Shown here: in pieces, positions 29,107 to 44,823 of the stretch
Layout: the number at the start of each line of letters is the position of its first letter
Numbering within the stretch: position 1 is the first letter of the stretch
Source: Gammaproteobacteria bacterium
GTDB lineage: Bacteria; Pseudomonadota; Gammaproteobacteria; Chromatiales; Chromatiaceae
Direction: 5' to 3'
DNA: 51,172 bases
NCBI GenBank assembly: GCA_030065815.1
Contig: JASJCU010000005.1
Span: 1 to 51,172, forward strand
Notes under the pieces: model-generated
Databases searched by the model: none
Seen by the model: the letters and a program-made list of their open reading frames with translations, nothing else
What the model was told of the DNA's origin: nothing
Position numbers and translations under genes: made by a program

Positions 29107-29118
29107 ACTGAGCCTGGC

Positions 29119-29124: not shown

Positions 29125-29244
29125 CCCGAATCGGTGGCCCGACGACAGGCAGCCGCGGCGCCAATAAGCCCGCTCGGAACACGGAACACCGACCCGCGCG
29201 CTCGGGTAGACTCGCGGCGTTTGAATCATTGCGGTGACGACACC

Positions 29245-29868
29245 ATGCGGCACATCAAGAAAGCGCTCTCCTACTCGGTGGCCGGCGGCCTCGGACTGAG
29301 CGTGATCGCCAGCCTGCAGGGCTGCAGCGACCAGGGCCCGGCACCCCCCAGTCTCGGCGGCTTCGACGCCGCACCGTCGGCGAACGAGGCCAATCAGTTC
29401 CTCGTCGTCGCACAGACCGGCAGCGACCCGGACACCTACCAACTAGTCGAGAAGCACCCGACCAACGGGCCGACGCGCGCGATCCTGCGCCTGCCTGACG
29501 GCAGCGAACGCTTCCTGTCGGAGGACGAGCTCAAGCGCATCGCTGCCGAGGAGGCGGCGCGGGTCGAGGACGGCACGTCGCGCCTGACCCAGGATCCGGC
29601 GATGCACGCCGGCGGCCTGTCACTCGGCGAGGTGCTGGTCGCCGCCGCCGCGGGCTCGCTGATCGGCGGCATGCTCGCCAACCGGCTGGCCGGCAATGCC
29701 AACTATCAGCGCACCCAGCAGAGCTACGGCGGCGGGCGCCCGACCGCGACGATCTCGCAACCGGCGCGCACCCAGACCGCCAATCGCACGCAGCCGCGCT
29801 CCGGATTCTTCGGCGGGGGCAGCGGTCGCTCGTCATCAGGCGGCGGCTTCGGCTCGTTCGGCGGCTGA
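29245..29868 (+). CDS. UPF0323 family lipoprotein
   Basis: A 207-residue protein of unknown function. It starts MRHIKKALSYSVAGGLGLSV with a lipobox-like end (SLQGC), so it is a likely lipoprotein. The middle (QFLVVAQTGSDPDTYQLVEK, ILRLPDGSERFLSEDELKRI, VEDGTSRL) and a Gly-rich region with GSLIGGMLANRLAGNANYQR, then a Gly/Ser tail (SGFFGGGSG), match UPF0323 lipoproteins such as Helicobacter HP0232. The frame is open upstream through the SRP RNA gene, but that part is not protein-like. It is followed after 3 nt by a YgiC-like gene, comparable to the YgiB-YgiC pair of E. coli. Confidence 0.9.
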   Translation: MRHIKKALSYSVAGGLGLSVIASLQGCSDQGPAPPSLGGFDAAPSANEANQFLVVAQTGSDPDTYQLVEKHPTNGPTRAILRLPDGSERFLSEDELKRIAAEEAARVEDGTSRLTQDPAMHAGGLSLGEVLVAAAAGSLIGGMLANRLAGNANYQRTQQSYGGGRPTATISQPARTQTANRTQPRSGFFGGGSGRSSSGGGFGSFGG

Positions 29869-29871
29869 TCG

Positions 29872-31047
29872 GTGGTCGACCTGCTCGCGGTGCAGCCGCT
29901 CGACCGCGAGGTCATGGAAGACATCGGCCTGAGCTGGCATACCGACCGCGACGGCAGCAGCTACATCGACAGCCAGCTGGTCCGGGTCAGCGAGGCCGAG
30001 GCCGAGGCCTACTACACGGCGGCCAACGCGCTGTACGACATGTACGTCGAGGCCGCCCAGCGCGTCATCGACGAGCAGCTGTACGTCGAGCTTGGCATTC
30101 CGGCGAACCTGGTCAAGCAGATCGAAGACAGCTGGGACAATGACGACCTGCACCTGTATGGCCGCTTCGACCTCGCCGGCGGCCTCGACGGCCTGCCGAT
30201 CAAGCTGATCGAGTTCAACGCCGACACGCCGACCAGCCTGTACGAGACCGCCATCGTGCAGTGGGCCCTGCTCAAGGCCAACGCCATGGACGAGTCGCGT
30301 CAGTTCAACAACCTGCACGAGATGCTGAAGGAGAACTACCACCGCCTGGTCACCGGCGACGACCCGCCGACGGCGTTCGCGGCGCGCTACGCACAGCAAA
30401 AGCTGCTGTTCTCCAGCGCCAGCGGTCTGCCGGAGGACGAGCAGACCGTCCGCTACCTGCAGCATGTCGCCCACGAGGCCGGCTGGTACACCGATTTCTG
30501 CTACCTGCACGAGGCCGGGTTCAGCGACGACGGGGTCTTCAACAAGGACGCACAACTCGCCGACTTCTGGTTCAAGCTGTTTCCGTGGGAGGACATCGCC
30601 GCCGACGAACTCGAGCTGACGCGCCTGCTCGGCCGCGTCGCGTCCGGCGGCCGGACGCGCATCATCAACCCGGCCTACACGCTGTTGTTCCAGAGCAAGG
30701 GCATCATGAAGGTGCTCTACGACCTGTACCCGGACTCGCCGTACCTGCTGCCCACCGACTTCGCACCGCTGGACGGCGTCGAACAGGTCCACAAGAAGCT
30801 GTTCGGCCGCGAGGGCGCCAACCTGCAGCTGCTCGGGCGCGACGGCAGCGTGCTGTCGCAGACCGACGGACCGTACGCCCACCACAAGGGCGTCTACCAG
30901 GAACGCGCGCGCTTCGCCCAGGATGCCGGCGGCGACAACTACCAGGCCGGCGTGTTCTACGTCTGGGAGGCCTGCGGACTGGGCTTTCGCCGCGGCGGCG
31001 CCATCCTCGACGACATGAGCAAGTTCGTCGGCCACGTCGTCGTCTGA
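29872..31047 (+). CDS. Glutathionylspermidine synthase-like ATP-grasp protein (YgiC family)
   Basis: A 391-residue member of the glutathionylspermidine synthase pre-ATP-grasp family. It shows ALYDMYVEAAQRVID, YGRFDLAGGLDGLPIKLIEF, EFNADTPTSLYETAIVQWAL and a C-terminal nucleotide-binding part ending GVYQERARFAQDAGGDNYQA and VWEACGLGFRRGG. It starts with GTG 3 nt after the lipoprotein stop. Family members lacking the amidase domain, such as E. coli YgiC, are ligases of uncertain substrate, so glutathionylspermidine synthesis itself is not established here. Confidence 0.88.
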   Translation: MVDLLAVQPLDREVMEDIGLSWHTDRDGSSYIDSQLVRVSEAEAEAYYTAANALYDMYVEAAQRVIDEQLYVELGIPANLVKQIEDSWDNDDLHLYGRFDLAGGLDGLPIKLIEFNADTPTSLYETAIVQWALLKANAMDESRQFNNLHEMLKENYHRLVTGDDPPTAFAARYAQQKLLFSSASGLPEDEQTVRYLQHVAHEAGWYTDFCYLHEAGFSDDGVFNKDAQLADFWFKLFPWEDIAADELELTRLLGRVASGGRTRIINPAYTLLFQSKGIMKVLYDLYPDSPYLLPTDFAPLDGVEQVHKKLFGREGANLQLLGRDGSVLSQTDGPYAHHKGVYQERARFAQDAGGDNYQAGVFYVWEACGLGFRRGGAILDDMSKFVGHVVV

Positions 31048-31527
31048 CCGCGGCTGCGGGTCAGCAGCCCTACCGGCGGGCCGACTCGCTCGGGTAGTGT
31101 CTGTCGGCCGCGCCGCCAGCCAGCCGCGCACCCCTGCGTCGGCATCGACCACCGGAATGGCCAAACCGGCACGCGCGCGGTAGCGACGACGCAGCCGCCG
31201 TCGATCGACGGCGCGCCCGGCGGCCGTGCAGCGGCGAGCGCGGTGAAGGCCTTCGCACCCGGCTCTGCAACCCGCGCATCGAGTCCGGCCCGCGTCGCCG
31301 CGTGCGTAGACCACCACGCGGTGAGCGACGACCCGGCGTCGTCGGCGCTCAGCCAGCGTGGATCGCTTTGGCCCTGCCATGCTCGATGCGGCGAATCGAC
31401 GGGACCACGACCGCCGCGGTCAATCCGCGCACGCCTGCATCAGGTCAAGCAATCGGCAATTCCTTGTACGGGCACGGGTCGCGTCTGGACTAACCTCAAC
31501 TCAGTAGTGCGGCACCCTGGTATCAGC
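31048..31527. other. Gap between the YgiC-like gene and the hydrogenase operon
   Basis: No supported gene is present in this 480-nt stretch. On the minus strand one frame between about 31130 and 31330 has protein-like composition (for example GLDARVAEPGAKAFTALAAA), but it has no plausible start and would need a frameshift near 31170 to continue (GLAIPVVDADAGVRGWLA). This might be the remains of a decayed gene. The 3' part contains a dyad (31446-31466) upstream of the hydrogenase. Confidence 0.35.
31446..31466. promoter_or_regulatory. Dyad upstream of the hydrogenase operon
   Basis: CAAGCAAT and ATTCCTTG are inverted around a 5-nt spacer, with 7 of 8 positions matching. It lies about 60 nt upstream of the first hydrogenase gene and could be an operator. 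The regulator is unknown, and it may be chance. Confidence 0.3.
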
Positions 31528-32640
31528 ATGAACAGCAGCAGCTTCCTGCCCCGCGACGCATTGCAATCGCTGATCGACGTCTTGCAGGATCGTGGCTACC
31601 GGACGATCGGCCCGCGCGCTCAGGACGGTGCGATCCAGTACCTGGACATCGACGACGTCGCGCAGCTGCCCGCCGGGACCGGCGACCATCAGTCGCCCGG
31701 CCGCTACCGCCTGCACGACGGCACGTCGCCGCGCCTGTTTGCGTGGGCCAACGGCCCTCAGGCGCTCAAGCCCTGGCTGTTCCATGCGCGCGAGACGCTG
31801 TGGTGCTCGACCCGTGGCGCCGACGGCCGGCTGAGCTTCGCCGCAGCGCCGGTCGACGAGCGGCCGCTGGCGGTCATCGGCGCGCGCGCCTGCGACCTTG
31901 CCGCCTGTCACCTGCAGGACCGGCATTTCGTCGATGGCATGACCGACCCGGCCTACGCGGCGCGCCGCCGCGGGCTGTTCACGGTCGCGGTGCACTGTAC
32001 CCAGCCGGCGGAGACCTGCTTCTGCGCGTCGACCGGCGATGGCCCGCGCGCCGGCGAAGGATTCGACCTCGCGCTCAGCGAACTCGACGACGGTTTCGTC
32101 GTCGTCGCCGGCAGCGCCGTTGGGCAGACGGTGGCCGACGCGCTGCCGACACGGACCGCGAGTCGCGAACAGCTCGCGCAGGCCGATGCCGAGATCGCCG
32201 GCGCCGCCGCGCGGCAGACGCGCCACCTGCCGTCGCGCGACCTGCGCGCGGCGCTGTTCGCGCGGCTCGAGCACGCGCGCTGGGACGACGTCGCCGGCCG
32301 CTGCCTGGCCTGCGGCAACTGCACCAGCGTCTGCCCAACCTGCTTCTGTCATGCCGAGCAGGACGTGCCGAGCCTCGACGGCACCAGCAGCGAACACGTC
32401 CGCGAATGGGATTCGTGTTTCAGCGAGGGCCACGGCTACCTGCACGGTTTCCAGATCCGGCCCGAGATCCGCCATCGCTTCCGCCAGTGGATGACCCACA
32501 AGCTCGGCAGCTGGCACGAGCAGTACGGGCGCAGCGGCTGTGTCGGCTGCGGCCGCTGTATCACCTGGTGTCCGGTCGGCATCGACATCACCGTCGAAGC
32601 ACAGGCGATCTGTGGCGACGCCGACGGAGGCAATGCATGA
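31528..32640 (+). CDS. hydB: Group 3b NiFe hydrogenase (sulfhydrogenase) beta, iron-sulfur subunit
   Basis: A 370-residue electron-transfer subunit. The C-terminal third holds two 4Fe-4S motifs, CLACGNCTSVCP and CVGCGRCITWCP, plus conserved FCHAEQD and EWDSCFSEGHGYLHG segments. The N-terminal domain (about 1-230) matches the HydB family (IGARACDLAACHLQDRHFVD, VHCTQPAETCFC). Group 3b enzymes couple cytosolic H2 oxidation or evolution to NADP(H) and can reduce sulfur in some archaea. The ATG at 31528 gives the family length; the longer upstream frame is not protein-like. It overlaps the next gene by 4 nt. Confidence 0.94.
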   Translation: MNSSSFLPRDALQSLIDVLQDRGYRTIGPRAQDGAIQYLDIDDVAQLPAGTGDHQSPGRYRLHDGTSPRLFAWANGPQALKPWLFHARETLWCSTRGADGRLSFAAAPVDERPLAVIGARACDLAACHLQDRHFVDGMTDPAYAARRRGLFTVAVHCTQPAETCFCASTGDGPRAGEGFDLALSELDDGFVVVAGSAVGQTVADALPTRTASREQLAQADAEIAGAAARQTRHLPSRDLRAALFARLEHARWDDVAGRCLACGNCTSVCPTCFCHAEQDVPSLDGTSSEHVREWDSCFSEGHGYLHGFQIRPEIRHRFRQWMTHKLGSWHEQYGRSGCVGCGRCITWCPVGIDITVEAQAICGDADGGNA

Positions 32641-33458
32641 ACCCGTACCTGCCGCGTCAGGCCGAGGTCGTGTCGCGCACCGTCGAGTCCGGCGACACCT
32701 TCAGCCTGGGTCTGCGCCTGACCGACGGCGAGCCCTACGACTTCGCGCCCGGGCAGTTCAACATGCTGTACCTGCACGGCTGCGGCGAGGTGCCGATCTC
32801 GGTGGTCGCCGACGACCCGGACAGCGATATCCTGACCCACACCGTGCGTGCCGTCGGGCGGATCACGCGCGGCCTCGAACAGCTCCAAGTCGGTGACCGC
32901 ATCGGCCTGCGCGGGCCGTATGGCCGCGGCTGGCCGATGACGCAAGCCGAGGGGCGTGACGTGGTGGTCGTGACCGGCGGTCTCGGCTGTGCACCGTCGG
33001 TCTCGATCATCCATCACATACTCGGCCACCGCGGGGGCTACGGCCACCTGAGCATCCTGCAGGGCGTCAAGCACACCGACGACCTGATCTGGCGCGCGCA
33101 GTACGACGCCTGGGCGCAGCTGCCCGACGTCGACGTGCTGCTCGCCGCCGACGTCGCCGAACCGGGCTGGCATGGCCACGTCGGCCTGGTCACGGCGCTG
33201 TTCGATCAACTGCGCCTGGAGCCGGCGCGCACGATCGCGATGCTGTGCGGCCCCGAGGTCATGATGCGGGCCGCAGCCGACGGCCTGCACGCGATCGGGC
33301 TCGCCGAAGACCGCATCTACCTGAGCATGGAGCGCAACATGCAATGCGCGGTCGGCCACTGCGGCCACTGCCAGCTCGGCGGCTCATTCGTCTGCAAGGA
33401 CGGGCCGGTGTTTGCGTGGCCGGAGATCCGGCCGCTGCTCGGCACACGGGGTTACTGA
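32637..33458 (+). CDS. hydG: Group 3b NiFe hydrogenase gamma, FAD/NAD(P)-binding subunit
   Basis: A 273-residue ferredoxin-NADP reductase-like subunit. An FAD-binding barrel (about 1-100, FAPGQFNMLYLHG, RGPYGRGWPM) precedes the NAD(P) domain (VVVVTGGLGCAPSVSIIHHI). The C-terminal Cys cluster MERNMQCAVGHCGHCQLGG then SFVCKDG is the [2Fe-2S] site of the PyrK type. This subunit passes electrons between H2 and NADP(H). The start ATG at 32637 overlaps hydB by 4 nt, and the stop is 1 nt before the next ATG. Confidence 0.94.
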   Translation: MNPYLPRQAEVVSRTVESGDTFSLGLRLTDGEPYDFAPGQFNMLYLHGCGEVPISVVADDPDSDILTHTVRAVGRITRGLEQLQVGDRIGLRGPYGRGWPMTQAEGRDVVVVTGGLGCAPSVSIIHHILGHRGGYGHLSILQGVKHTDDLIWRAQYDAWAQLPDVDVLLAADVAEPGWHGHVGLVTALFDQLRLEPARTIAMLCGPEVMMRAAADGLHAIGLAEDRIYLSMERNMQCAVGHCGHCQLGGSFVCKDGPVFAWPEIRPLLGTRGY

Positions 33459-33459
33459 C

Positions 33460-34251
33460 ATGACGCGACCGACGATCGCCGTGCACAAGTTCTCGTCGTG
33501 CGACGGCTGCCAGCTGGCGTTCCTGAACGCCGGCGAGGACCTGCTCGAGCTCGCCGGCCTGGTCGACATCCGGCACTTCCTCGAGGCCGGCGTCGCCGAC
33601 GAGGACGCCGGCGTCGACATCGCGTTCGTCGAAGGCAGCATCTCGACCGCCGAGGAGGTCGAGCGCATCCGGCGCGTACGCGCCAACAGCGGCATGGTCG
33701 TCACGCTCGGCGCCTGCGCGACCGCCGGCGGCCTGCAGGCGCTGCGCAACCTCGACGGCCGCAACGACGCGTGGAAGCAGGCCGTCTACGCGCAGCCCGA
33801 ATTCATCGGCACGCTCGAGCACGCCGAACCCGTCGCCGCGCACATCGACGTCGACTTCGCGCTGTGGGGCTGCCCGGTCAACGGCCGCCAGGTGCTGGCC
33901 GCGGTGCGTCAGCTCTTGTTCGGCGTCACCCCGCTCGACCCGCGCGACAAGCTGTGCCATGAGTGCAAGCGCCAGCACGCCGTGTGCGTGATGGTCGCCG
34001 ACGGCAGGCCGTGCATGGGCCCGGTCACCCGCACCGGCTGCGGCGCGCTGTGTCCGCGCTTCGGCCGCGATTGCTACGCGTGCTTCGGCCCCGCCGAGAA
34101 CGCCAACACGGCCGCGATGGGCGCGCGGCTCGACGGCCTCGGCCTGCCGCCGGCCGATATCGCGCGGCGCTTTCTGTTCATCAACAGCCACGCCCCCGGA
34201 TTCCTCGAGGCCGGGCGCAAGCACTACCGGAGCGATTTCGGCGATGACTGA
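33460..34251 (+). CDS. hydD: Group 3b NiFe hydrogenase delta, small subunit
   Basis: A 263-residue small subunit carrying the Fe-S chain to the NiFe site. It opens with the proximal cluster motif SSCDGCQLAFLN (Cys near 13 and 16), followed by EGSISTAEEVERI, LGACATAGGLQAL and WGCPVNGRQVL. A Cys-rich C-terminal region (CHECKRQHAVC, CMGPVTRTGCGALCPRFGRD, CYACFGPAENAN) holds the other clusters. There is no Tat signal, consistent with a cytoplasmic enzyme. The frame is open earlier, but MTRPTIAVHKFSS is the family start. It overlaps hydA by 8 nt. Confidence 0.95.
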   Translation: MTRPTIAVHKFSSCDGCQLAFLNAGEDLLELAGLVDIRHFLEAGVADEDAGVDIAFVEGSISTAEEVERIRRVRANSGMVVTLGACATAGGLQALRNLDGRNDAWKQAVYAQPEFIGTLEHAEPVAAHIDVDFALWGCPVNGRQVLAAVRQLLFGVTPLDPRDKLCHECKRQHAVCVMVADGRPCMGPVTRTGCGALCPRFGRDCYACFGPAENANTAAMGARLDGLGLPPADIARRFLFINSHAPGFLEAGRKHYRSDFGDD

Positions 34252-35539
34252 ACGCAAAGTCAGCATCCATGTCCCGGCGTTGACCCGGGTCGAGGGCGAA
34301 GGCTCGCTGCGCCTGCGCATCGAGCACGGCGAGATCGAGGAACTGGCGCTGACGATCTTCGAACCGCCGCGCTACTTCGAGAAGTTCCTCGAAGGGCGCC
34401 GGCACCACGAGGTCATCGACACCGTCGCGCGCATCTGCGGCATCTGCCCGATCGCCTACCAGATGAGCGCGGCACAGGCGCTCGAGAACGCGTTCGGCAT
34501 GACGCCGAGCGACTGGGTGCGCGATATGCGCCGGGTGTTCTACTGCGGCGAGTGGCTGCAGAGCCATGCGCTGCACGTCCATCTGCTCGCGGCACCGGAT
34601 TTCCTCGGCTTCGACAGCGTCGTCGGCATGGCCGAGAAGTACCCGGACGAGGTCAGACGCGGCCTGCGCCTGCAGGGACTCGGCAACCGGCTGATCGGCC
34701 TGCTCGGTGCGCGCTCGGTGCACCCGGTCGGCGCGCGCGTCGGCGGCTTCCACCGTGCACCGTCGCTGGCCGAGGTCGACGCGATGCTCGACAAGCTGCG
34801 CGGCGCGCTGCCGGATGCCGAATCGCTGATCGCGTGGGCGGCGTCGCTGCCGATGCCCGACGACCCCCAGGATTTCGTCAGCGTGGCGCTGCGCCACCCG
34901 ACCGACTACCCGATGACCGAGGGCCGCATCGTCGCCGACAACGGCCTCGACATCGATGTCGCCGACTACGAATCGCGCTTCGTCGAGGAACATCGCGCGC
35001 AGTCGACGGCGCTGTTCTCGCTGCTCGACGGCCAGCCCTACCTGGTCGGCCCGTTGCCACGCCTGAACCTGAACCTCGACCGCCTGCCGGCCAGCAGTCG
35101 CGCGCTGCTCGACGCGACCGGCGTGCGCTTCCCGAGCGACAACATGTTCCACAGCCTGCTGGCGCGCACGATCGAGATCCACGTCGCGCTGGTCGAGGCG
35201 ATCCGCCTGCTCGAGGACTACCGGGTACCCGACAGCCCCTATGCCGAGCCGACGGTCATGGCCGGCAGCGGCTGCGGCGCGACCGAGGCGCCACGCGGCC
35301 TGTTGTGGCATCGCTACGTCGTCGACGCGGCCGGCATCGTCCGCGGTGCGCGCATCGTGCCGCCGACCAGCCAGAACCAGGCACGCATCGAGGTCGACCT
35401 GCGCCGCAGCCTGCTGGCGTTCGGTCTCGACCACGCCGACGACGCGCTGCGCCTGCGCGCCGAGACCGTGATCCGCAACTACGATCCGTGCATCTCGTGC
35501 GCGACCCATTTCCTCCGGCTAGACGTCGAGCGCCGGTGA
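34244..35539 (+). CDS. hydA: Group 3b NiFe hydrogenase alpha, catalytic large subunit
   Basis: A 431-residue catalytic subunit that ligates the NiFe(CN)2CO site through four Cys. The N-terminal pair is in RICGICP (Cys65, Cys68) and the C-terminal pair in DPCISCATH (Cys416, Cys419, His422). The nine residues after His422 (FLRLDVERR) are the tail that a maturation protease removes after nickel insertion. LTRVEGEG near the N-terminus and the absence of a signal fit group 3 cytosolic enzymes. It overlaps hydD by 8 nt and the protease gene by 4 nt. The hyp accessory genes are not in the window. Confidence 0.96.
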   Translation: MTERKVSIHVPALTRVEGEGSLRLRIEHGEIEELALTIFEPPRYFEKFLEGRRHHEVIDTVARICGICPIAYQMSAAQALENAFGMTPSDWVRDMRRVFYCGEWLQSHALHVHLLAAPDFLGFDSVVGMAEKYPDEVRRGLRLQGLGNRLIGLLGARSVHPVGARVGGFHRAPSLAEVDAMLDKLRGALPDAESLIAWAASLPMPDDPQDFVSVALRHPTDYPMTEGRIVADNGLDIDVADYESRFVEEHRAQSTALFSLLDGQPYLVGPLPRLNLNLDRLPASSRALLDATGVRFPSDNMFHSLLARTIEIHVALVEAIRLLEDYRVPDSPYAEPTVMAGSGCGATEAPRGLLWHRYVVDAAGIVRGARIVPPTSQNQARIEVDLRRSLLAFGLDHADDALRLRAETVIRNYDPCISCATHFLRLDVERR

Positions 35540-35976
35540 TCCGGGTGATCGGACTCGGCTCGCCGTTCGGCGACGATCAGGCCGGCTGGTGGGTCGCCGA
35601 CAGGCTGCGCGAACAGAACCTCTCGGGTATCGACATCGTCACGCTGGACCGCCCCGGCGCCGCGCTGATCGACTGGTTTCGCGACTGCAACCACGTGATC
35701 CTGATCGACGCGCTGGTCGACGGCGGTGACGCCGGGCGCGTCGTCGCGCTGGACCCCGACCTGCTGCCGGGTCAGCGCCCGCTGACCAGCCACCAGCTCG
35801 CGATCAGCGAGACGCTGGCGCTGGCCGAGGCCCTGGACTGCCGGCCCGCCTGTGTCGAGATTTATGGCGTCACGATACAGACAAGCGACCAGGTCCACGC
35901 CGAGGTCAGGCATGCCGCGGAACGGCTCGGCGCTCGGCTCAGCGCCCGTTTGGGGAGCGTGCGAAGCGTCGGATAG
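35536..35976 (+). CDS. Hydrogenase maturation protease
   Basis: A 146-residue M52-family endopeptidase, expected to trim the C-terminal tail of HydA after nickel insertion. It has the typical start VIRVIGLGSPFGDDQAGWWV with the Asp pair that binds Ni, VILIDALVDGG and LTSHQLAISETLALAEAL. The start is GTG at 35536, overlapping the hydA stop by 4 nt (GTGA), so translation is coupled. It is the last gene of the hydrogenase operon. Confidence 0.92.
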   Translation: MIRVIGLGSPFGDDQAGWWVADRLREQNLSGIDIVTLDRPGAALIDWFRDCNHVILIDALVDGGDAGRVVALDPDLLPGQRPLTSHQLAISETLALAEALDCRPACVEIYGVTIQTSDQVHAEVRHAAERLGARLSARLGSVRSVG

Positions 35977-36082
35977 CCCGTTCCGAAGGGCCCGAAGGGC
36001 GCTGCCCTCAGGCATCGCAACGTCACACGACTCGACGCCTTATTGCTCTAAATCATAATTCATCGTTCCCTAATACAGTTAT

Positions 36083-36105
36083 ATTTGTCGTTCGAGACGA
36101 CAAAT
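36083..36105. promoter_or_regulatory. Perfect palindrome upstream of the cytochrome gene
   Basis: ATTTGTCGT and ACGACAAAT are exact inverted arms (9 bp) around the 5-nt spacer TCGAG, 63 nt upstream of the dihaem cytochrome ATG and right after AT-rich promoter-like sequence (TTATAT). It has no T-run of a terminator and the arms suit a dimeric repressor or activator. No regulator gene is adjacent. Confidence 0.55.
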
Positions 36106-36167
36106 CTCCCACCTTACCGGCAGCACCGTGGGCAGACCCCAAACAACACGCGAACGAGGGTTTCAGC

Positions 36168-37277
36168 ATGTACAAGAAGATGGTGGCCGTGGCGTTCCTG
36201 CTCGCCGTCAGCCTGCCGGGCTGGTCCGCGGACATGGCGAACGGCCAACGGATCAACAAGAGCTGCGCACTGTGTCACGGTGCACACGGCCAGGGCGCGT
36301 CCGGCAAGCTGTCGCCGCGCATCGCCGGCCTGCCCAAGGAATACATCATCAAGACCATGAAGGACTACGTCGAAGGCCGCCGCGTCTACCCGCTGATGGT
36401 ACGCACCTCGCAGATCGACAAGTTCACCGAACGCGATTTCGAAGACGTCGCCACCTACCTGGCGTCGCTCGACCTCAGCTCCGACGCGATGTTCGACATC
36501 CAGGCAAGCTTCGGTGACGCCGCGGCCGGCAGGAAGATCTACAAGAGCGACTGCCGGACCTGCCACAACAAGGACGGCTACGGCAGGCCGAGGAAAGAGG
36601 CCCCGCCGCTGGCCGGCCAGCACGCCGCGTACCTGTACACGACGATGCGCGGCTTCGCCGAAGGCCATCGCGTGCACGCCAACGACGACGAAGACGACAC
36701 CTTCGAAGACTACAAGGACAACGACTTCATCAACCTCACGGCCTACCTGGCGACACTCGATGATGCGCGCATCGTCGAGGGTTACGCGTTCGAGGCACCT
36801 GTCTATCGCGCGAGCCTGGCGCGCAAACCGCAGACCGAACTCGACGACAGCATCCAGATCACCGACATCAAGCAGACGGTCGTGCGCATGGCCCTGGAGG
36901 ACGGCGTGACGACCGACATGGCCGAGGAGGCGATGATCGCGAAGGCCGAAGAGATCGGCCTGAAGAAGGTCGCACAACAAAAGGTGTCGAAGTTCCTCGC
37001 CCGCCAGGACGTGAAGATGCCGCACCTGTCGATCTTCCAGTTCTGTAACCCGCTGGACGCCCGCCTGATGGTGATGGCCGACCCGGTGTTCTCGAGCTAC
37101 ATGCCGTGCCGTATCTCGATGGTCGAGGACGCCAACGGCAAGCTGTGGCTGATGATGCTCAACCTCGATATGCTCATCAACAGCAAGCTGCTGCCCAACG
37201 AGGTGGTCGAGACCGCCATCCGCGTCAACCAGCAGATGCTCGACGTCATGACCGCGGGCGCGGCCGGCAAGACCTGA
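36168..37277 (+). CDS. Secreted dihaem cytochrome c with C-terminal DUF302 domain
   Basis: A 369-residue periplasmic protein. A signal peptide (about 1-20, ending GWSA) precedes two c-type domains. The haem motifs are CALCH (Cys33, Cys36, His37) and CRTCH (Cys129, Cys132, His133), as in cytochrome c4. The first domain has PLMVRT for a Met axial ligand; the second lacks an obvious equivalent Met. Residues about 235-360 form a DUF302 domain (FQFCNPLDARLMVMADPVFS, YMPCRISMVEDANGKLWLMM, NLDMLI). DUF302 proteins are frequent in sulfur-oxidising bacteria but their role is poorly known. The gene lies downstream of the hydrogenase operon, separated by a palindrome, so it is probably an independent unit. 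Confidence 0.92.
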   Translation: MYKKMVAVAFLLAVSLPGWSADMANGQRINKSCALCHGAHGQGASGKLSPRIAGLPKEYIIKTMKDYVEGRRVYPLMVRTSQIDKFTERDFEDVATYLASLDLSSDAMFDIQASFGDAAAGRKIYKSDCRTCHNKDGYGRPRKEAPPLAGQHAAYLYTTMRGFAEGHRVHANDDEDDTFEDYKDNDFINLTAYLATLDDARIVEGYAFEAPVYRASLARKPQTELDDSIQITDIKQTVVRMALEDGVTTDMAEEAMIAKAEEIGLKKVAQQKVSKFLARQDVKMPHLSIFQFCNPLDARLMVMADPVFSSYMPCRISMVEDANGKLWLMMLNLDMLINSKLLPNEVVETAIRVNQQMLDVMTAGAAGKT

Positions 37278-37572
37278 GCAGTCGCGCGGCGTTCACGCGC
37301 CGCGCGCCGGGCGACCGCGATCACGTGGCCCCGGGCCGGGCCGCCGACCGCAGCGTCGGCGGCGCACCGGCGACTGTCTTTCCACTGGGTAATGCGTGAC
37401 GCCGTGGATCAGCGGTATCCGTAATCGGGGAGCGGCACGATCCGCGCTTCGGCGGGCAGCGCGGCCGAAGCGCGCTCGCCGCGAACGGCGCGCCTTGATC
37501 GCACCGGCGGAGCGCTTCGCTGACCACGGACACCGGGCCCGCCGACCGCGGTGTGTCCCGACGACAGCGCCG
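37278..37572. other. Convergent intergenic region with GC hairpin
   Basis: No gene is supported between the cytochrome stop and the end of the minus-strand ATPase. A GC-rich hairpin (about 37282-37305, CGCGCGGCG with CGCCGCGCG) follows the cytochrome but has no T-run, so it could at most be a weak transcript end. Confidence 0.4.
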
Positions 37573-40431
37573 TCAGATGCCCTCGACGAGCTGCAGGAAC
37601 CGCTCGAAGGTGCTCGGCGGTGCCTTCTTCGGCGGCGGCGCCTTCGGCTTGGGTCTTGCCGCGGCCTCGGCGGCCAGCCGAGCCATCTCCGCCTCGGCCA
37701 GCGCGACGGCCTCGGCCTCGTCCCGGGCTGCGACGATCTCGCGGCGCATCGACTGCATGCGTGCGCTGTCCGGCTTGACCCGCAATCCACGGTTCGCAAA
37801 CCGCTCGGCCTTGTCGTAGTCCTCCGCCCGCAGCGCCCTGAGCGCCAGCCTGGCGTAGCGGTCGACGATGCGCTCGATGCCGCGCTGCGCGTCGGCGTTG
37901 TCCGGGTCGATCTCGAGGACCTGTCTGAGGTAGCGGTAGGCGCTGCGTGCCTCCGGCATCAGCAGGCGGTCTGCGGCGATGGCACGACCGGCCTTGGCGA
38001 TCAGCGCCTCGACGTCGGGCGAGGGCGCCGCGATTGCCGCGACCCGCAGCGGGGCCTCGCTGACCGGCAGCGATTGCACCTGCTCGACGTCGGCGGCGAT
38101 CTCGAACTCCGTTCCCTCGGCGACCTGTCCGGCGGGCGATGCCACGGCGGTATCGATGTCGGTCCGGACCGCAGCCGGTTCGGTGGGCGCAGCGTCCGCG
38201 CTCGTACCGACCGCCTCCGGATCGAGGCCGGCGTCAGGGCCGGCTGCAGCGAGCGCGGTGCCGTGCGGGTCACCGCCGATCGCCGTGGCGGCGGGCAGTG
38301 CATCGTCGGGCAGGACCGGCGCTGCCAGTATCGGCGTCACGGCCACGCCGGATGCCGGGGCATCAGCGCCATCGGCCGTGCGCGGCGGAACCCCCGCGGC
38401 AGTCGTCGGCAATGCCTCGATGGCATCGACCACGGCGTGCACATCGCCGGACCGCACGGCCGCTGGTAACGACGCCGGCGCCGCGGCGTCCGCAGCAGCA
38501 GCGAGCGCGGGTTCGCGATCGGCGTGTCCGGGTGGGGTCTCGACCACCGTTACATCGGCCGGTTCGCTGTCGGTGTCTTCGAGCGGCCGGATGATTACGC
38601 CCGTGAGCTCGGTGCGCTGATCGCGTCCGTTCAGGCTCCAGACATTGATGCCCTCGCGCGACACCGCGTCAGGATCGCGCGCGATCGTCCAGACGGTCAG
38701 ACTGCTGTCGAAGCGCCCGGTCGCGCTCAACAGACCGGCCGCGGTCTCGTCGCTGATCGCCGTCACCAGCGTGCGGTCCGCCGGGCTGCCGTCGAGGGCC
38801 AGGCGAGCGCGCGCGGCCGGTGCCACGACCGGCGCCAGCGGCTGGCCGCCGAGTAGCTCGCCGATGGCCGCGCCAGCGATGCCGGTCGTTGTCAGGAAGC
38901 CGCCACGCATGACCGCCTGCAGCGTGTCGACCGCCGGTGCGATCGCGCCGGCGTCGGCGCCGCTGATCACGAAACCACCGTGCTCGTCGAGGATGCCGGG
39001 GCCGACGTAGGTCGGCGCTTCGGCATCGCCGAGCTGGCGCGACGACTCGATGACAGCGTCGCCGACGTCGCCACGATCGGCGAGTAGCAGGCCGCCGAGC
39101 ACGGCGACACCGACACCCGCCGCGGCGACGGCCGCGGTCGGGAAGCCGAACAGCGGGCGCCGTGCTTGCGTGCGCAGCGCAGCGACGGCCGCCGCTGCGC
39201 GCTGCCCCAGCGTCTGCGCCGAGCGCCCGAGCGCTGACGTCACGGCACCGCGCCAGTGTCGCAGGCGGGCAACGACACCCGACCTGCCCTGGCGCAGCTC
39301 GGCAAGCGCGTACAGCAGCCGCGTCCAGTAGCGGCGCAGCCGGCGGCGCACGCGGTAGCGCGAACGCGAACCGCTACGACGGCCAACGCGCAGCAGGTAA
39401 CGGTCGTGGCCGCGGACGTCGCGGTACGGTTTGCTGGCATGCGACTCGGGCGCCGAGCGCTCCGCCGGCAACGGCGCGCTGTCGCGTTCGTCGCGCATCG
39501 CGCGTGCGACCGATGGCGGCGGCTGCGGTATCGCACTGGGCACCAGCGCGAGTTCGTAGACCGACTGCAACTGCTGGTTGTCGACGATCTCCGGCAGACT
39601 GTCGTGCCCGAGCGGTGCCAGCAGTTCCTTGCGCAGGTCGCCAACGACCGCGTTCACGTCGGAGTCGTCGAGCGCGTGGCGTTCTTCGCTGCTGCCGTGC
39701 AGCATCAGGCGGCTGCCGATCTTGTTGACGTGACGCGGTACCCCGCGGCTGTAGCGGTAGATCGCCATGACCGCCGGGCCGCTGATCGACGGGTCGCCGC
39801 GCCAGTTGGCTGCCGCGAGGCGGTACTCGAGGTAGGCCTTGGTCTCCATCAGGTCCATCGGCTGCAGGCGGCAGCTCGCGATCACACGGTGCTGGAACTG
39901 CTCCATGCCGGGGGCACTCATGACGCCCTCGAGTTCCTGCTGGCCGAACAGCACCAGTTGCAGGACCGGCTGCGATTGCGACTGCAGGTCGGTCAACAGG
40001 CGCATCGCCTCGAGCGACTGATGGGACAGCGTCTGCGCCTCGTCGATGACGACCAGGACCCGCCGCTGGGTGAGTTGGACCTCGACCAGGTGACGTTCGA
40101 TCAGCAACGACAGCATCGCCCGGTCCTTGCCTTCGACCGGCAGTCCCAGCGCGTAGGCGAGCTTGCGCAACAGGTCCATCGGCGTCAGGTCGTTCGCGAC
40201 CAGGCGCACGCTGATGACCTTCGACGGGTTGGTCTCGCCGAGCAGGCGCTGCGACAACGTCGTCTTGCCCGAACCCGGTGGCCCGGTAACGACGACGATG
40301 CCCTCGCCGCGGCGCAACGCGTAGCGCAGGTAGGCCCAGGCGCGGGCGTTGCTGCGGTGTGGGAAACAGATCCCGGCGTCGGGCAACAAGCGAAACGGGT
40401 CGTTGCTCAGCTTGTAGTAGGTCTCGTACAT
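37573..40431 (-). CDS. ExeA/GspA-like AAA ATPase with long membrane and TPR-like extension
   Basis: A 952-residue protein. Residues about 1-270 are an ExeA-type AAA ATPase: MYETYYKLSNDPFRLLPDAG start, Walker A GPPGSGKTT (50-58), Walker B RRVLVVIDEAQTL (about 128-140) and RGVPRHVNKI. Very basic sequence follows (RVGRRSGSRSRYRVRRRLRR near 375-395), then a membrane helix near 455-475 (AVAAAGVGVAVLGGLLLA), a long Ala/Pro/Asp-rich periplasmic part, and a C-terminal TPR-like region (LEIDPDNADAQRGIERIVDR, FANRGLRVKPDSARM) with a Lys/Pro-rich end. Related ATPases serve type II secretion or PEP-CTERM/exopolysaccharide loci. The start MYETYYKL at 40431 is the family start. The extension is much longer than usual. 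Confidence 0.85.
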   Translation of the reverse strand: MYETYYKLSNDPFRLLPDAGICFPHRSNARAWAYLRYALRRGEGIVVVTGPPGSGKTTLSQRLLGETNPSKVISVRLVANDLTPMDLLRKLAYALGLPVEGKDRAMLSLLIERHLVEVQLTQRRVLVVIDEAQTLSHQSLEAMRLLTDLQSQSQPVLQLVLFGQQELEGVMSAPGMEQFQHRVIASCRLQPMDLMETKAYLEYRLAAANWRGDPSISGPAVMAIYRYSRGVPRHVNKIGSRLMLHGSSEERHALDDSDVNAVVGDLRKELLAPLGHDSLPEIVDNQQLQSVYELALVPSAIPQPPPSVARAMRDERDSAPLPAERSAPESHASKPYRDVRGHDRYLLRVGRRSGSRSRYRVRRRLRRYWTRLLYALAELRQGRSGVVARLRHWRGAVTSALGRSAQTLGQRAAAAVAALRTQARRPLFGFPTAAVAAAGVGVAVLGGLLLADRGDVGDAVIESSRQLGDAEAPTYVGPGILDEHGGFVISGADAGAIAPAVDTLQAVMRGGFLTTTGIAGAAIGELLGGQPLAPVVAPAARARLALDGSPADRTLVTAISDETAAGLLSATGRFDSSLTVWTIARDPDAVSREGINVWSLNGRDQRTELTGVIIRPLEDTDSEPADVTVVETPPGHADREPALAAAADAAAPASLPAAVRSGDVHAVVDAIEALPTTAAGVPPRTADGADAPASGVAVTPILAAPVLPDDALPAATAIGGDPHGTALAAAGPDAGLDPEAVGTSADAAPTEPAAVRTDIDTAVASPAGQVAEGTEFEIAADVEQVQSLPVSEAPLRVAAIAAPSPDVEALIAKAGRAIAADRLLMPEARSAYRYLRQVLEIDPDNADAQRGIERIVDRYARLALRALRAEDYDKAERFANRGLRVKPDSARMQSMRREIVAARDEAEAVALAEAEMARLAAEAAARPKPKAPPPKKAPPSTFERFLQLVEGI

Positions 40432-40521
40432 GGCCGCCCCCCTGACTGGCGAAGCCCACAACCCGACCGCGCGCGATGCATGTCGCGGACCGTCAGGCAC
40501 TGACATCCTCTTTTGGGATTT

Positions 40522-40527
40522 ATTATA
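40522..40527 (-). promoter_or_regulatory. Candidate -10 box for the ExeA-like ATPase
   Basis: A perfect TATAAT on the minus strand lies about 90 nt upstream of the ATG at 40431. The hexamer 17 nt before it (TTCTCT) is a weak -35. The surrounding region is AT-rich compared with its neighbours. Confidence 0.45.
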
Positions 40528-40692
40528 TGGTAGCTCAAAGGCTTAGAGAATCTTGACGAAATATTACCTAAACACCGGGACGCGCTCGCCCAGCGCGACG
40601 GCTGAGTGACGCAGTTCACAGTTTGCTGGGATCAAGTGTCGGCTGACCGCGCGCCGGCAGCAAGCCCCGGTGGCGCCCGCCGCCGTGTCGTG

Positions 40693-41082
40693 TCAGCGCG
40701 CGGCGTCGTCCGGCAGCGCTGCCGTGGATCCGGCGAGCACTCGGGCTGCCGCCTCGCGGGTGTAGAAACGTCCGTTACGCATGAAGCCGGCGATCACGGC
40801 CGGGATCGTGCGAACGATCGCGCCGAGGTCGTCGCGCCCGCCGATCCAGTGTGCCGGCAGACCGTCCAGGACATGGACCGGGGCGGGACGGCCGTCGGCG
40901 AAGCGCGAGATCCGCGTCTCGCCGGTGTCGGTATTCTGGTAGGCAGGCACGAAACCGGCGGCGCGGTTGTGGGCGCTGACCCCGCCGGTGCCGGCAAACG
41001 CATCGTTTTGCGCCCGCAGATCGCACTGACACAGGCCGGCGGCGCGACGCTGGGTATCGCGCCGCCGGCGACAGCGAATCAT
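40693..41082 (-). CDS. Small conserved hypothetical protein
   Basis: A 129-residue protein. The core GGVSAHNRAAGFVPAYQNTD, TGETRISRFADGRPAPVHVL, DGLP and AGFMRNGRFYTREAAARVLA is very protein-like and matches short uncharacterised proteobacterial proteins with an FADGRPAP motif. The N-terminal 35 residues (MIRCRRRRDTQ, then a CQC pair) are less convincing, and no other ATG, GTG or TTG is available nearer the core, so the start is uncertain. The function is unknown. Confidence 0.65.
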   Translation of the reverse strand: MIRCRRRRDTQRRAAGLCQCDLRAQNDAFAGTGGVSAHNRAAGFVPAYQNTDTGETRISRFADGRPAPVHVLDGLPAHWIGGRDDLGAIVRTIPAVIAGFMRNGRFYTREAAARVLAGSTAALPDDAAR

Positions 41083-41365
41083 CCCGCTCGTGCAATAACC
41101 ACCCGGCATCTCTGCCCCCAGTTCGTTGCCGCGACGGCGCCCATCACGCGTCGTAATTCGCCAAGCATCTCGCGTGCCAGCGCCAACCGGGCAGGACCGC
41201 GGGGATCGTCATTTTCTCTTTCGATATCATATGGTTCGAGCAGCGTCCGCGTTCCCTAACCGGGCCCCGACATGGCCCGCGATCTGTTGGGCAGCCCCAA
41301 CACCGTAAAGTTTTCTTAACATTTCCATGCGCTCAGCGGGCCGATCGGGATTAGCATTCGCGTGC

Positions 41366-42433
41366 ATGGGTGAATCGCGCCACCATCGACACGGCCGCGG
41401 CGCCGGCAGCAACCCGCGCAACCGCTACAGCGCGCACGCGACGTCGCCGTTCGACGATGGCTGGGGCGCGGCTGCGCCGACGTCGCTGCGGACCACGGTC
41501 GGCATCGACCGGGCGCGCCGGGCGATCAGCTACAACGATTCCCCGGACATACCGTTCGACCGTTCGGTGAACCCCTACCGCGGCTGCGAACACGGGTGCG
41601 TCTATTGCTACGCGCGGCCGACCCACGCCTGGCTCGACCTGTCGCCCGGCCTCGACTTCGAGAGCCGGCTGTTCGCCCGACCCGGGTTGCCGGAGCTGCT
41701 GCGCGACGAACTGGCCGCGCCGGACTATCGCCCGGCGCCGCTCGCGATCGGTGCGATCACCGATGCCTACCAGCCGATCGAACGCCACCATGCGATCACC
41801 CGGCGCGTCGTCGAGATACTGGCCGCGGCGCGCCACCCGACGCTGCTGATCACCAAGTCGGCGATGGTCGAACGCGACATCGATGTGCTCAGTGACATGG
41901 CCGCCGACGGCCTGCTCGAGGTCGCGATCTCGCTGACCACACTGGCTCCCGGCATCGCGCGCACGCTGGAGCCGCGCGCGGCGAGTCCGCGGCGCCGCCT
42001 GCAGACCATCGCCGCGCTCGCCGATGCCGGGATCCCGGTGCGCGTGATGCTGGCGCCGGTGATCCCGGTGCTGACCGAAGCGGAGATCGAATCGCTGCTC
42101 ACGGCCGCGCGCGACGCCGGCGCGCGCTGCGCCAGCTACGTGTTGCTGCGGCTGCCGCTGGAGGTTGCCGATTTGTTCCGGGATTGGCTGCGGACCCACC
42201 ACCCCGATGCCGCACAGCGGGTCATGCGGCACGTGCGCGACACCCGCGGCGGCCACGACAACGACGCCCGCTTCGGCCACCGCATGCGCGGCCGCGGCCC
42301 GTACGCCGACCTGATCGCGCAGCGCTTCGCGCTGGCCGGCAAAAGGCTGGGGTTCGAGTCGCCGACGGCGCTGCGCAGCGACCTGTTCGTGCCGCCACAG
42401 CGCCACGGGCAGATCCCGCTGTTCACCCCCTAA
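41366..42433 (+). CDS. PA0069-family radical SAM protein
   Basis: A 355-residue radical SAM enzyme of the group that includes spore-photoproduct-lyase-like proteins. The 4Fe-4S motif is in RGCEHGCVYCYARPTH (Cys74, Cys78, Cys81). NPYRGCEHGC, LITKSAMVERDIDVLSDMA, SLTTLAPGIARTLEPRAASP and VMLAPVIPVLTE are typical of this family. The N-terminus GRGAGSNPRNRYS matches the family start, so the ATG at 41366 was preferred to 41327. The reaction is unknown. It is followed 222 nt later by a second radical SAM gene, with no sign that they act together. Confidence 0.9.
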   Translation: MGESRHHRHGRGAGSNPRNRYSAHATSPFDDGWGAAAPTSLRTTVGIDRARRAISYNDSPDIPFDRSVNPYRGCEHGCVYCYARPTHAWLDLSPGLDFESRLFARPGLPELLRDELAAPDYRPAPLAIGAITDAYQPIERHHAITRRVVEILAAARHPTLLITKSAMVERDIDVLSDMAADGLLEVAISLTTLAPGIARTLEPRAASPRRRLQTIAALADAGIPVRVMLAPVIPVLTEAEIESLLTAARDAGARCASYVLLRLPLEVADLFRDWLRTHHPDAAQRVMRHVRDTRGGHDNDARFGHRMRGRGPYADLIAQRFALAGKRLGFESPTALRSDLFVPPQRHGQIPLFTP

Positions 42434-42655
42434 GACCCCTGATATAGCCAGGTTTTCTTTAATTTACAAGGCGTTGCGATTTTGTCCGCCTTTGAAGGAC
42501 GTAACGCAATCTGTTAACGTCGCGGCCTTCTTGACGACATCCCCCGATTGCCAGCCGACACCCGGGGCGGAGACCGCCGACGCCAGAACGCGGTTCCCAC
42601 CAGACAACCTCGGCCGCGCCCAGACTGGCGCGACCGCATACTGAGAGAGGTGGAT

Positions 42656-44041
42656 ATGTCCACGATTTCAGCACTGCGACGTCAGCACGACGGCGCGGCC
42701 AAGCCAGATGCCGCGGCACGGCGTTTCCAGGTCTACACACAACGCGACCTCGATCGCATCGAGCAGCTCGAACAGCTGCCGGAACAGACGCGTTTCGACA
42801 TGCGCGTCGTCGCGTCGGTGCTGCCGTTCCGGGTCAACGCCTACGTCATCGAGGAGCTGATCGACTGGTCACGGGTGCCGGACGACCCGATCTACCAGCT
42901 GACCTTCCCGCAGCGTGACATGCTGTCGCCCGGGCAGTACGCACGGATGGCAGCGGCACTGCATGCCGGTGCCCCGAAGGCCACGCTGCAGGCGCTCGCC
43001 CACGAGCTGCGCGCCGAGCTCAATCCGCACCCGGCCGGCCAGCTGCAGCTCAACGTGCCGACCGACGCCGACGGCCAGGACCTCAACGGACTGCAGCACA
43101 AGTACCGCGAGACCGTGCTGTTTTTCCCCAGCCAGGGCCAGACCTGCCATAGCTACTGCACGTTCTGCTTTCGCTGGGCGCAGTTCGTCGGCGACAAGGC
43201 CCTGCGCATGGCGTCGACCGAGGCCACGCGCCTGCACGCCTACCTGCGCGACCATCGCGAGGTCAGCGACCTGTTGATCACCGGCGGCGACCCGATGGTC
43301 ATGAAGACCAAGCACCTCGCGGGCTACCTCGAAGCGCTGCTCGACCCGGCATACGACCACGTCCAGACGATCCGCATCGGCACCAAGGCACTGACGTTCT
43401 GGCCGCAGCGCTTCGTCACCGACGACGACGCCGACGACCTGTTGGCGCTGCTGTCCCGCCTCGTCCGGGCCGGCAAGCATGTCGCGATCATGGCGCACTA
43501 CAACCACTGGCGCGAGCTGTCGACCGACATCGCCCAGCGGGCGGTCCGGCGCCTGCGCGACTGCGGCGCCGAGATCCGCAGCCAGGGGCCGCTGCTCGCA
43601 CACATCAACGACAACGCCGACGACTGGGCACGCCTGTGGAAGACCCAGGTACGGCTCGGCATCGTGCCCTATTACATGTTCGTCGAGCGCGACACCGGCG
43701 CCCGCCACTACTTCGAAGTGCCGCTGGCACGCGCGTGGAACATCTACCGCGACGCCATGCAACAGGTCTCCGGTCTCGGCCGCACCGCGCGCGGACCGAG
43801 CATGAGCGCCGGCCCGGGCAAAGTCGAGATCCAGGGCGTCACCGAGATCGGCGGCGAGAAGCTGTTCGTGCTGCGCTTCATCCAGGGGCGCGATCCCGAC
43901 TGGGTGCAGCGGCCGTTCTTCGCCCGCTACGACGAACGGGCCACCTGGCTCGACCAGCTGCAGCCGGCGTTCGGCGATGCCGCGTTCTTCTTCGAGCCGG
44001 CGTATCGGGCAATGCAGGCGGCCAGCGTGGACGGCACCTGA
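42656..44041 (+). CDS. KamA-family radical SAM aminomutase-like protein
   Basis: A 461-residue protein related to lysine 2,3-aminomutase. The radical SAM motif is CHSYCTFCFRW (Cys164, Cys168, Cys171), with ITGGDPMVMK and HYNHWRELS later. A Lys in SAGPGKVEIQG near the C-terminus takes the place of the PLP-binding Lys of aminomutases. It is longer than EpmB and lacks the usual GGGGK form, so the substrate may not be lysine. The ATG at 42656 has GAGAGAGG upstream. A secreted redoxin gene follows after 56 nt, possibly cotranscribed. Use as an osmolyte or beta-amino acid enzyme is speculative. Confidence 0.85.
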   Translation: MSTISALRRQHDGAAKPDAAARRFQVYTQRDLDRIEQLEQLPEQTRFDMRVVASVLPFRVNAYVIEELIDWSRVPDDPIYQLTFPQRDMLSPGQYARMAAALHAGAPKATLQALAHELRAELNPHPAGQLQLNVPTDADGQDLNGLQHKYRETVLFFPSQGQTCHSYCTFCFRWAQFVGDKALRMASTEATRLHAYLRDHREVSDLLITGGDPMVMKTKHLAGYLEALLDPAYDHVQTIRIGTKALTFWPQRFVTDDDADDLLALLSRLVRAGKHVAIMAHYNHWRELSTDIAQRAVRRLRDCGAEIRSQGPLLAHINDNADDWARLWKTQVRLGIVPYYMFVERDTGARHYFEVPLARAWNIYRDAMQQVSGLGRTARGPSMSAGPGKVEIQGVTEIGGEKLFVLRFIQGRDPDWVQRPFFARYDERATWLDQLQPAFGDAAFFFEPAYRAMQAASVDGT

Positions 44042-44097
44042 CATCGCTGAAATACAATGCCATCCCCGGTGGTCCTGTGATCAAGGAGGTACCGACG

Positions 44098-44823
44098 ATG
44101 GCTTTCGGCAGACGCGCACACGAATTCGGTTTGGCGGCCGCGGCAGCCATGTTGATGCTCGGCGCGCATGGCGTCCCGGCCCTGGAGGCGATCAGCCCGC
44201 CGAGCGGCCGCGCGCCCACTGTTCACCTCGGTCCACGCCTGCTCGATCCGGCCGAGCACCAGATCGGCAAGCAGATCCCGGACACCCCCTTCACCGGCGT
44301 CGACGGCCGTGCCCACCGTCTGTTCGATGACGCCGGCAGACGCGGCACCGTCGTCATCGTGCGCGACCCGGCCTGCCCGGTGTCGCAACGTTACGGCCCG
44401 CGGATCAAGCAGCTCGCCGAGCGCTACGGCGACGACTTCAGCTTCGTGTACATCTACCCCAGCACCGACCTGACCGCCGAAGAGCGGGCCGACGATGCGC
44501 GCGCGATCGGCCTGCCCGGCCAGTTTGCCGTGCGCGGCAGTTTCGTCCTTGCCGAGGTGTTGGGCGTCGCCAGCACCGGTGACGTGTTCGTCCTCGACGA
44601 CGCACGCCGACTGCGTTATCGCGGCGCCGTCGATGACCAGTTCGGCGTCGGCTACACGCGCGACTTCCCGACCGCCCATTACCTGCGCAACGCCCTCGAC
44701 GACGTACGCAGCGGCCGGCCGGTCGACACCCCGGCCACATCGGCCCCCGGCTGCTACATCGACGCTGACCCGCTCAAGGACCGGCTGATCCCGTCGGTCC
44801 CCGGCGGCCACCTGCTGTCATAG
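44098..44823 (+). CDS. Secreted redoxin-domain protein (thioredoxin-like)
   Basis: A 241-residue protein with a likely signal peptide (about 1-31, AAAAAMLMLGAHGVPA). The thioredoxin-like domain (about 60-200) has IPDTPFTGVDGRAHRLFDDA, VVIVRDPACPVSQRYGPRIK and DVFVLDDARRLRYRGAVDDQ. The active-site position is CPVS with one Cys, so peroxiredoxin- or monothiol-type chemistry is more likely than a CxxC disulfide reductase. A second Cys occurs in SAPGCYID near the C-terminus. The ATG has a perfect AAGGAGGT upstream, the strongest Shine-Dalgarno in the window. It lies 56 nt after the KamA-like gene. Confidence 0.8.
   Translation: MAFGRRAHEFGLAAAAAMLMLGAHGVPALEAISPPSGRAPTVHLGPRLLDPAEHQIGKQIPDTPFTGVDGRAHRLFDDAGRRGTVVIVRDPACPVSQRYGPRIKQLAERYGDDFSFVYIYPSTDLTAEERADDARAIGLPGQFAVRGSFVLAEVLGVASTGDVFVLDDARRLRYRGAVDDQFGVGYTRDFPTAHYLRNALDDVRSGRPVDTPATSAPGCYIDADPLKDRLIPSVPGGHLLS

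Follow-up and report, generated by a model that had tools for sequence, protein, structure and literature searches.

A dihaem cytochrome c4-like protein with a C-terminal DUF302 domain and its two-gene counterparts in gammaproteobacteria

Cytochromes c4 are exported proteins built of a tandem pair of class-I haem domains, in which both haems have His/Met ligation. Domains of the DUF302 family (PF03625) have been solved in TT1751 (1j3m) and APC35924 (1q9u), both of which possess a CNP...PC cysteine pair. According to the available portions of the respective reports, an unfused DUF302 gene is located between soxA and soxB in Acidithiobacillia, where a role in trithionate oxidation was suggested and no fused cytochrome is described (PMC5037610), and another between soxF and soxH in Sulfitobacter (PMC11034169); Thiobacillus thioparus has no DUF302 gene between soxA and soxB, and six elsewhere in its genome (PMC5248467). 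Two further kinds of haem protein are relevant for comparison, again as described in the accessible text: TsdA and SoxA, multihaem proteins that act in sulfur metabolism in the periplasm and combine one unusual haem with a reactive Cys (PMC6879331), and the Thermus dihaem cytochrome c550, a shuttle for a sulfite-oxidising molybdoenzyme (PMC3561395). Within the accessible part of the open-access DUF302 literature, subscription journals lying outside the search, no cytochrome–DUF302 fusion is described; the same open-access texts give no shown function for DUF302.

The gene considered here (Table 1) is located in a 51,172-nt stretch of DNA, the whole of which is referred to as the window. It starts with ATG and encodes, as anticipated in an earlier note made from the sequence alone, two c4-like haem domains and a DUF302 domain in one secreted chain, the signal peptide being recognised by eye. 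Pfam profiles matched as Cytochrom_C (E 1.6e-15, two stretches), Cytochrome_CBB3 (E 3.9e-13) and DUF302 (39.4 bits against a gathering cut-off of 23), and the best PDB relatives of residues 21–174 are cytochromes c4 (6q2u, E 5.8e-17; 1etp, E 1.2e-12). The protein differs from cytochrome c4 in that the Met loop of haem 2 is replaced by R-x-H and an acidic stretch, and in the added C-terminal domain; the His/Met pattern of c4 would therefore hold for haem 1 (Met77) and not for haem 2, where no Met aligns. The DUF302 domain shares the CNP...PC cysteines of TT1751 and APC35924 but, unlike these, is secreted, tied to haem domains and placed in a separate subclade. In being periplasmic and multihaem, with one unusual haem and a Cys pair, the fusion resembles TsdA and SoxA. 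However, its six cysteines are residues 33, 36, 129, 132, 293 and 314; the haem domains thus have no Cys besides those of CXXCH, a Cys axial ligand inside the haem domain is not predicted, and the Cys pair resides in another domain. The best NCBIfam match, to the periplasmic dihaem shuttle PdsA (NF049874; 57.4 bits, residues 18–196), is far under the curated cut-off of 330, and PdsA has no DUF302 domain. The arrangement characteristic of the haem subunit (FccA) of the sulfide dehydrogenase FCSD, a gene directly with FccB, is not that of the fusion: no FCSD gene lies beside it in window positions 28001–45000, and the FCSD flavoprotein gene of this genome is at another locus (L056). An AlphaFold model calculated from four sequences had a pLDDT of 34.5 and a pTM of 0.26.

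Table 1. Positions of the fusion gene, its parts and the elements upstream of it, in window coordinates.
Feature	Position	Strand	Basis
Group-3b-like NiFe hydrogenase (sulfhydrogenase-type): FeS, FAD/NAD, small and large subunits, maturation protease	31528..35976	+	neighbour of the fusion
FNR/ANR-like box TTGCTCTAAATCAT	36043..36056	+	counterparts with the same spacing in L009, L010, L011, L042
Candidate -10 hexamer TATATT	36080..36085	+	puts the box centre near -41.5
Dihaem c4-like cytochrome–DUF302 fusion gene, 369 aa (P0001)	36168..37277	+	ORF, Pfam and PDB matches
Sec-type signal peptide, residues ~1–21	36168..36230	+	by eye
Haem 1 site CALCH, residues 33–37	36264..36278	+	sequence; Pfam Cytochrom_C
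Met77, presumed distal ligand of haem 1	36396..36398	+	Met at the aligned position in module cytochromes
Haem 2 site CRTCH, residues 129–133	36552..36566	+	sequence; Pfam Cytochrome_CBB3
Haem-2 distal loop RVHANDDEDDTF, residues 168–179	36669..36704	+	occupies the place of the ordinary c4 Met loop
DUF302 module, residues ~227–369	36846..37274	+	standalone genes match query 227–368
Pfam DUF302 core, residues 274–332	36987-37163	+	profile match
Cys293 in FQFCNP motif	37044..37046	+	aligned DUF302 rows
Cys314 in YMPC motif	37107..37109	+	aligned DUF302 rows

An error of assembly or annotation joining two genes, on which the earlier note would have foundered, is ruled out, since independent genomes have the gene in an unbroken frame. 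Four congeneric genomes possess full-length homologues with 74–81% identity, and further genomes have others at 49–62%, each in a single frame; one of the genomes carrying a single-frame fusion (G006) is a single contig.

To what extent the architecture is distributed was assessed in surveys of increasing breadth, and the expectation that it is uncommon was confirmed. In the first one, in which 56 relatives were searched with the fusion protein, the fusion was found in the window genome and G004, G005, G006 and G008 of its genus, in G017 (where a contig end cuts it), G018 and G019 elsewhere in the family, and in G043 of another family; the congeneric G001, G002, G003 and G007 had no full-length match. 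Of 194 genomes of the family, 64 matched at E ≤ 1e-40. Seventeen of these carry single-frame fusions, a number obtained by reading the rows and including two fusions cut by contig ends (G017, G503) and two diverged ones (G415, G455; 37% identity), the DUF302 scores of which (22.4 and 20.3 bits) fall slightly short of the Pfam cut-off, 23. In 10 genomes one alignment crossed one or two stops, corresponding to in-line neighbouring genes, and the two-gene form was confirmed in all four such loci that were retrieved (G491, G507, G508, G557). Cytochrome and DUF302 matches were separate and neighbouring in 18 genomes, and the cytochrome half alone exceeded the threshold in 19, two of which (G023, G031) do possess a neighbouring DUF302 gene after all. 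At the level of the class, 3 of 369 genomes contain the fusion (G000, G043, G187), with any match at E ≤ 1e-20 in 64, and among 398 genomes of the phylum it was detected solely in the window's own (E ≤ 1e-28). DUF302 itself is widespread, being present in 231 of the 369 sampled gammaproteobacterial genomes. The halves of the fusion protein are thus separate neighbouring genes in many relatives and, therefore, it was most likely a two-gene module already in existence that was united in the fusion; the split-gene DUF302 relatives have, by eye, a signal peptide of their own.

In order to trace the origin of the fusion, 78 DUF302 rows, ten of them fused, were placed in a maximum-likelihood tree. 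The ten form one clade (support 100/99) and have one origin; nine other fused loci are outside the tree, and the single origin therefore covers ten of 19. The sister group consists of pairs adjoining sulfide dehydrogenase genes (G015, G028, G032), and both are nested in a clade of 24 rows (100/98), 21 of which have a cytochrome partner. This position, next to pairs and within a mostly cytochrome-partnered clade, makes it most likely that the fusion arose from a gene pair. Another large DUF302 clade, often of 195 aa, is represented by loci L135–L174 (e.g. L135, L137, L147, L149), where the genes alongside encode, by eye, a membrane protein whose start is rich in Cys in 16 loci, a ParA-like ATPase in 15 and a dynamin-like GTPase in 10. 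DUF302 similarity alone was rejected as a sign of sulfur oxidation, as a 34-row clade takes in the 16 loci beside the Cys-rich membrane protein.

For the haem-2 loop, 48 distinct dihaem c4-like ORFs were aligned, 22 of which are members of the module, that is, fused to DUF302 or its immediate neighbours. The absence of a Met ligand at haem 2 that had been read from the window sequence holds for RVHANDDEDDTF and for the module as a whole: all 22 cytochromes have Met at haem 1, presumed by analogy to be its distal ligand (Met77 in the fusion), and R-x-H at haem 2, and none has an aligned haem-2 Met, two partnered rows (L091, L094) having Met residues a few places past that position. The module cytochromes also possess an acidic loop at haem 2, the acidic part of which varies (e.g. 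L214). Among the other 26 ORFs, 18 have, by eye, a Met in the haem-2 loop, including several dihaem cytochromes from the same gene clusters; in L033 neither Met nor R-x-H is clear, and L027 stops before the loop. The remaining six (L036, L101, L103, L105, L106, L114) have a related R-x-H loop without Met and no DUF302 gene within the 2.2–3.7 kb examined, by which the R-x-H loop is partly rejected as specific to DUF302 partners. The haem-2 His, residue 170 in the fusion, is therefore probably older than the link with DUF302, and it is the fuller acidic loop that, judging from the alignment, goes with DUF302 partnership. Four of the six cytochromes (L101, L106, L103, L036) adjoin, by eye, NosZ-, NnrS- or NorC-like genes.

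Both cysteines of the DUF302 domain, Cys293 and Cys314, are Cys in all 78 aligned rows, distant rows of the window genome included. The pair is general to DUF302 and therefore no marker of sulfur oxidisers; two other DUF302 genes of the window genome do without it (L054, L058:7634). In the 24-row clade the surroundings of the pair are nearly fixed (FC-x-P-x-DA, YMPC, VED, LNL), and Met301 and Met312, beside the cysteines, are fixed in 24 of 24 rows.

A second dihaem cytochrome c–DUF302 fusion is encoded in the window genome (L058:6585-7637 on contig C8; 350 aa). It likewise unites two haem c sites and DUF302 in one chain, but its haem domains are cbb3/c6-like, with scores below NCBIfam cut-offs, both haem loops contain Met by eye (it is one of the 18 ORFs with Met mentioned above), and its DUF302 domain is distant from that of the window fusion in the tree. 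It is near full-length in 10 of the 56 genomes, its own included, with one extra partial match. The gene overlaps by 4 nt another DUF302-like gene without the Cys pair. Because two fusions and many neighbour pairs exist, it appears from their sequences that the cytochrome and DUF302 parts belong together, and the idea that DUF302 is an electron-linked module is thereby supported indirectly, by the same parts as neighbouring genes and by a second, unlike fusion. As for the other DUF302 genes of this genome, which also has SoxB and DsrA above cut-off, one (L056) adjoins the FCSD genes, another (L055) a gene for an SQR-like flavoprotein (116 bits to the SQR model, cut-off 525), and a third, without the Cys pair, a CusA-like RND gene identified by eye. 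Yet another, at L057:786-1181, does have the Cys pair and lies beside an ATP sulfurylase-like gene (by eye).

Gene neighbourhoods were examined in stretches picked by similarity to P0001 rather than by sulfur genes; they differ in length, several stop at contig ends, the home-made gene finder misses or trims genes, and neighbours without a family call were named by eye. A systematic search of the stretches found SoxB at one and the hydrogenase at five of 19 fused loci; as far as the retrieved stretches extend, the 18 without SoxB also lack FCSD, SQR-like and other Sox genes. The 18 pair loci include FCSD in four, a DMSO-reductase-family molybdoenzyme in three and CcoN in two, those with FCSD, SQR-like or Sox genes numbering four; the 53 other DUF302 loci include FCSD in two and SoxB in two. 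At L134 a DUF302 gene lies between soxA and soxB, in the order of the Acidithiobacillia cluster. None of the 19 stretches of a small control contained FCSD, SQR-like or Sox genes. Among the matches listed, 15 genomes belonging to three genera have FCSD at a distance of 2.9–3.1 kb from the DUF302 half, and FCSD is also near the pair of G507 (L218). The cbb3 oxidase genes adjoin pairs in two loci of one family (L117, L120). Three loci from three genera (L123, L222, L223) have an operon-like arrangement of genes for a pentahaem protein, a DMSO-reductase-family molybdoenzyme (825 or 862 aa, below subfamily cut-off), a c4-like cytochrome and DUF302, the last being cut by a contig end in L123. At L214:5946-8971 the fusion gene is convergent with soxB 95 nt away (SoxB 882 bits), and on its opposite side one finds, by eye, norCB-like genes and a gene for a CRP-like regulator.

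Across the family, FCSD was present in 61 of 64 genomes with a module match versus 94 of 130 others (p 6e-5) and SoxB in 61 of 64 versus 92 of 130 (p 2e-5), numbers that are confounded by ancestry (FCSD in 155 and SoxB in 153 of the 194 genomes) and in which 17 of the 64 'module' genomes are represented by the cytochrome half alone. Sulfur chemistry, as suggested in the earlier note, is plausible: FCSD or SoxB stands by some module copies and FCSD and an SQR-like flavoprotein by other DUF302 genes of the window genome, but the stretches retrieved for 18 of the 19 fused loci show no such neighbour.

The hydrogenase upstream of the window fusion adjoins it in the five copies of the genus and is absent from the stretches retrieved for the other 14 of 19 fused loci. 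The large, small and FeS subunits match Hyd/Shy models best, and the FAD/NAD subunit matches the cytochrome-c3 hydrogenase gamma model, followed by AsrB and Hyd/Shy, all below cut-offs. The hydrogenase is a possible functional partner; the gap of 191 nt between the two contains promoter-like elements of the fusion's own. The distance from the FNR/ANR-like box to the -10 hexamer is 23 nt in all five genus upstream regions (by eye). Scored against the FNR/ANR consensus, the five boxes reach 8, 8, 8, 8 and 7 of 10 (window 8), and at least 8 is also attained by 4–12% of shuffled regions (5% for the window region); the evidence for the box is therefore its conservation rather than its score. In a scan of 36 loci, with no start found for L048, L049, L116 and L119 and with L215 left out, a score of 9 was obtained for TTGATGTAGGTCAA upstream of the L214 fusion, as well as for L120 and L122, the regions of which are AT-rich and where 8 is attained by 31% and 37% of shuffles. 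Beyond the genus and L214, FNR-like control of the module at large is unsupported.

What the sequences show is the architecture, one origin of the ten fusions in the tree, a haem-2 loop kept throughout the module, the Cys pair, and relatives in which the two parts are separate genes. We take the fusion to be a single-chain version of a two-gene module of the periplasm, which occurs chiefly in sulfur-oxidising gammaproteobacteria, and propose tentatively that thiols or sulfur are oxidised at the Cys pair and that electrons leave via the haems. The Cys pair would react with a reduced sulfur compound (sulfane sulfur, a persulfide or a thiol made near FCSD/Sox), electrons would pass to haem 2, then to the His/Met haem 1 and from there to a soluble cytochrome or cbb3 oxidase; in the fused chain, the domain that reacts with sulfur would stay attached to the one that accepts its electrons. 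Thiol or sulfur oxidation appears to be the best-supported role because sulfide- or thiosulfate-oxidising enzymes recur, in a minority of loci, as neighbours, haems move electrons and the cysteines are invariant. We count against it the 18 fused loci lacking a sulfur neighbour in the stretches retrieved, the confounding by ancestry and the generality of the Cys pair, as well as the retention of Met by the second fusion and by other dihaem cytochromes near DUF302 genes; three pair loci, moreover, follow the molybdoenzyme and the window copy stands behind a hydrogenase operon, with promoter-like elements for itself. A rather unlikely alternative, but one that suits such diverse neighbours (FCSD, SoxB, the molybdoenzyme with its pentahaem protein, cbb3 oxidase, hydrogenase), is a plain electron shuttle, the haems serving various periplasmic oxidoreductases and DUF302 docking or dimerising without chemistry of its own. 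Thermus c550 offers a precedent in the accessible text (PMC3561395), yet a Cys pair conserved in 78 of 78 rows with nearly fixed surroundings suggests more than docking.

The fixed Met residues beside the Cys pair, which might also suit a copper site and to that extent count against sulfur oxidation, could indicate that DUF302 is a metal site or metallochaperone for the cytochrome or an oxidase, formed by the Cys pair, Met and perhaps the acidic haem-2 loop. The CusA-like neighbour and the two pairs adjoining cbb3 genes would agree with this, but the DUF302 next to CusA lacks the Cys pair and, by eye, most module loci have no copper or oxidase-assembly gene, which makes it improbable. Still less credible is a haem 2 that is five-coordinate or His-ligated and binds NO, O2 or peroxide in a sensor or detoxifier induced at low oxygen: the missing Met in all 22 module cytochromes, the FNR-like box of the genus and of L214 with its norCB-like genes, and the denitrification-type neighbours (NosZ-, NnrS-, NorC-like; by eye) of the R-x-H relatives point that way, but 4–12% of shuffles reach the box score of the genus copies, the box is not general at other module loci, and no ligand chemistry is required of a c4 fold that holds a low-potential haem. 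Equally doubtful is a direct approach of Cys293 or Cys314, in the form of a reactive thiolate or persulfide, to the Met-less haem 2, creating a SoxA/TsdA-like two-domain sulfur site that in the split form would be assembled from two proteins; if true, DUF302 would gain a catalytic role. Returning to the tentatively preferred sulfur-oxidising module, what is new here is the Met-less R-x-H/acidic haem-2 loop of the module, the invariant Cys pair and the second, unlike fusion. Two unlike dihaem fusions and a conserved cytochrome–DUF302 pair provide the widespread DUF302 with a concrete partner and with a function that can be put to the test, namely redox or sulfur chemistry of the Cys pair.

Two minor features of the window may be added. 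A perfect 9-bp inverted repeat, ATTTGTCGT-N5-ACGACAAAT, extends over the candidate -10 region (36083-36105); inverted repeats of at least 7 bp are absent from that region in L009, L011 and L042, and L010 has another one, further upstream. The converging neighbour of the fusion gene (37573-40431, minus strand) encodes a protein resembling the XrtA/PEP-CTERM-system ATPase, with 251 bits against a cut-off of 324.5.
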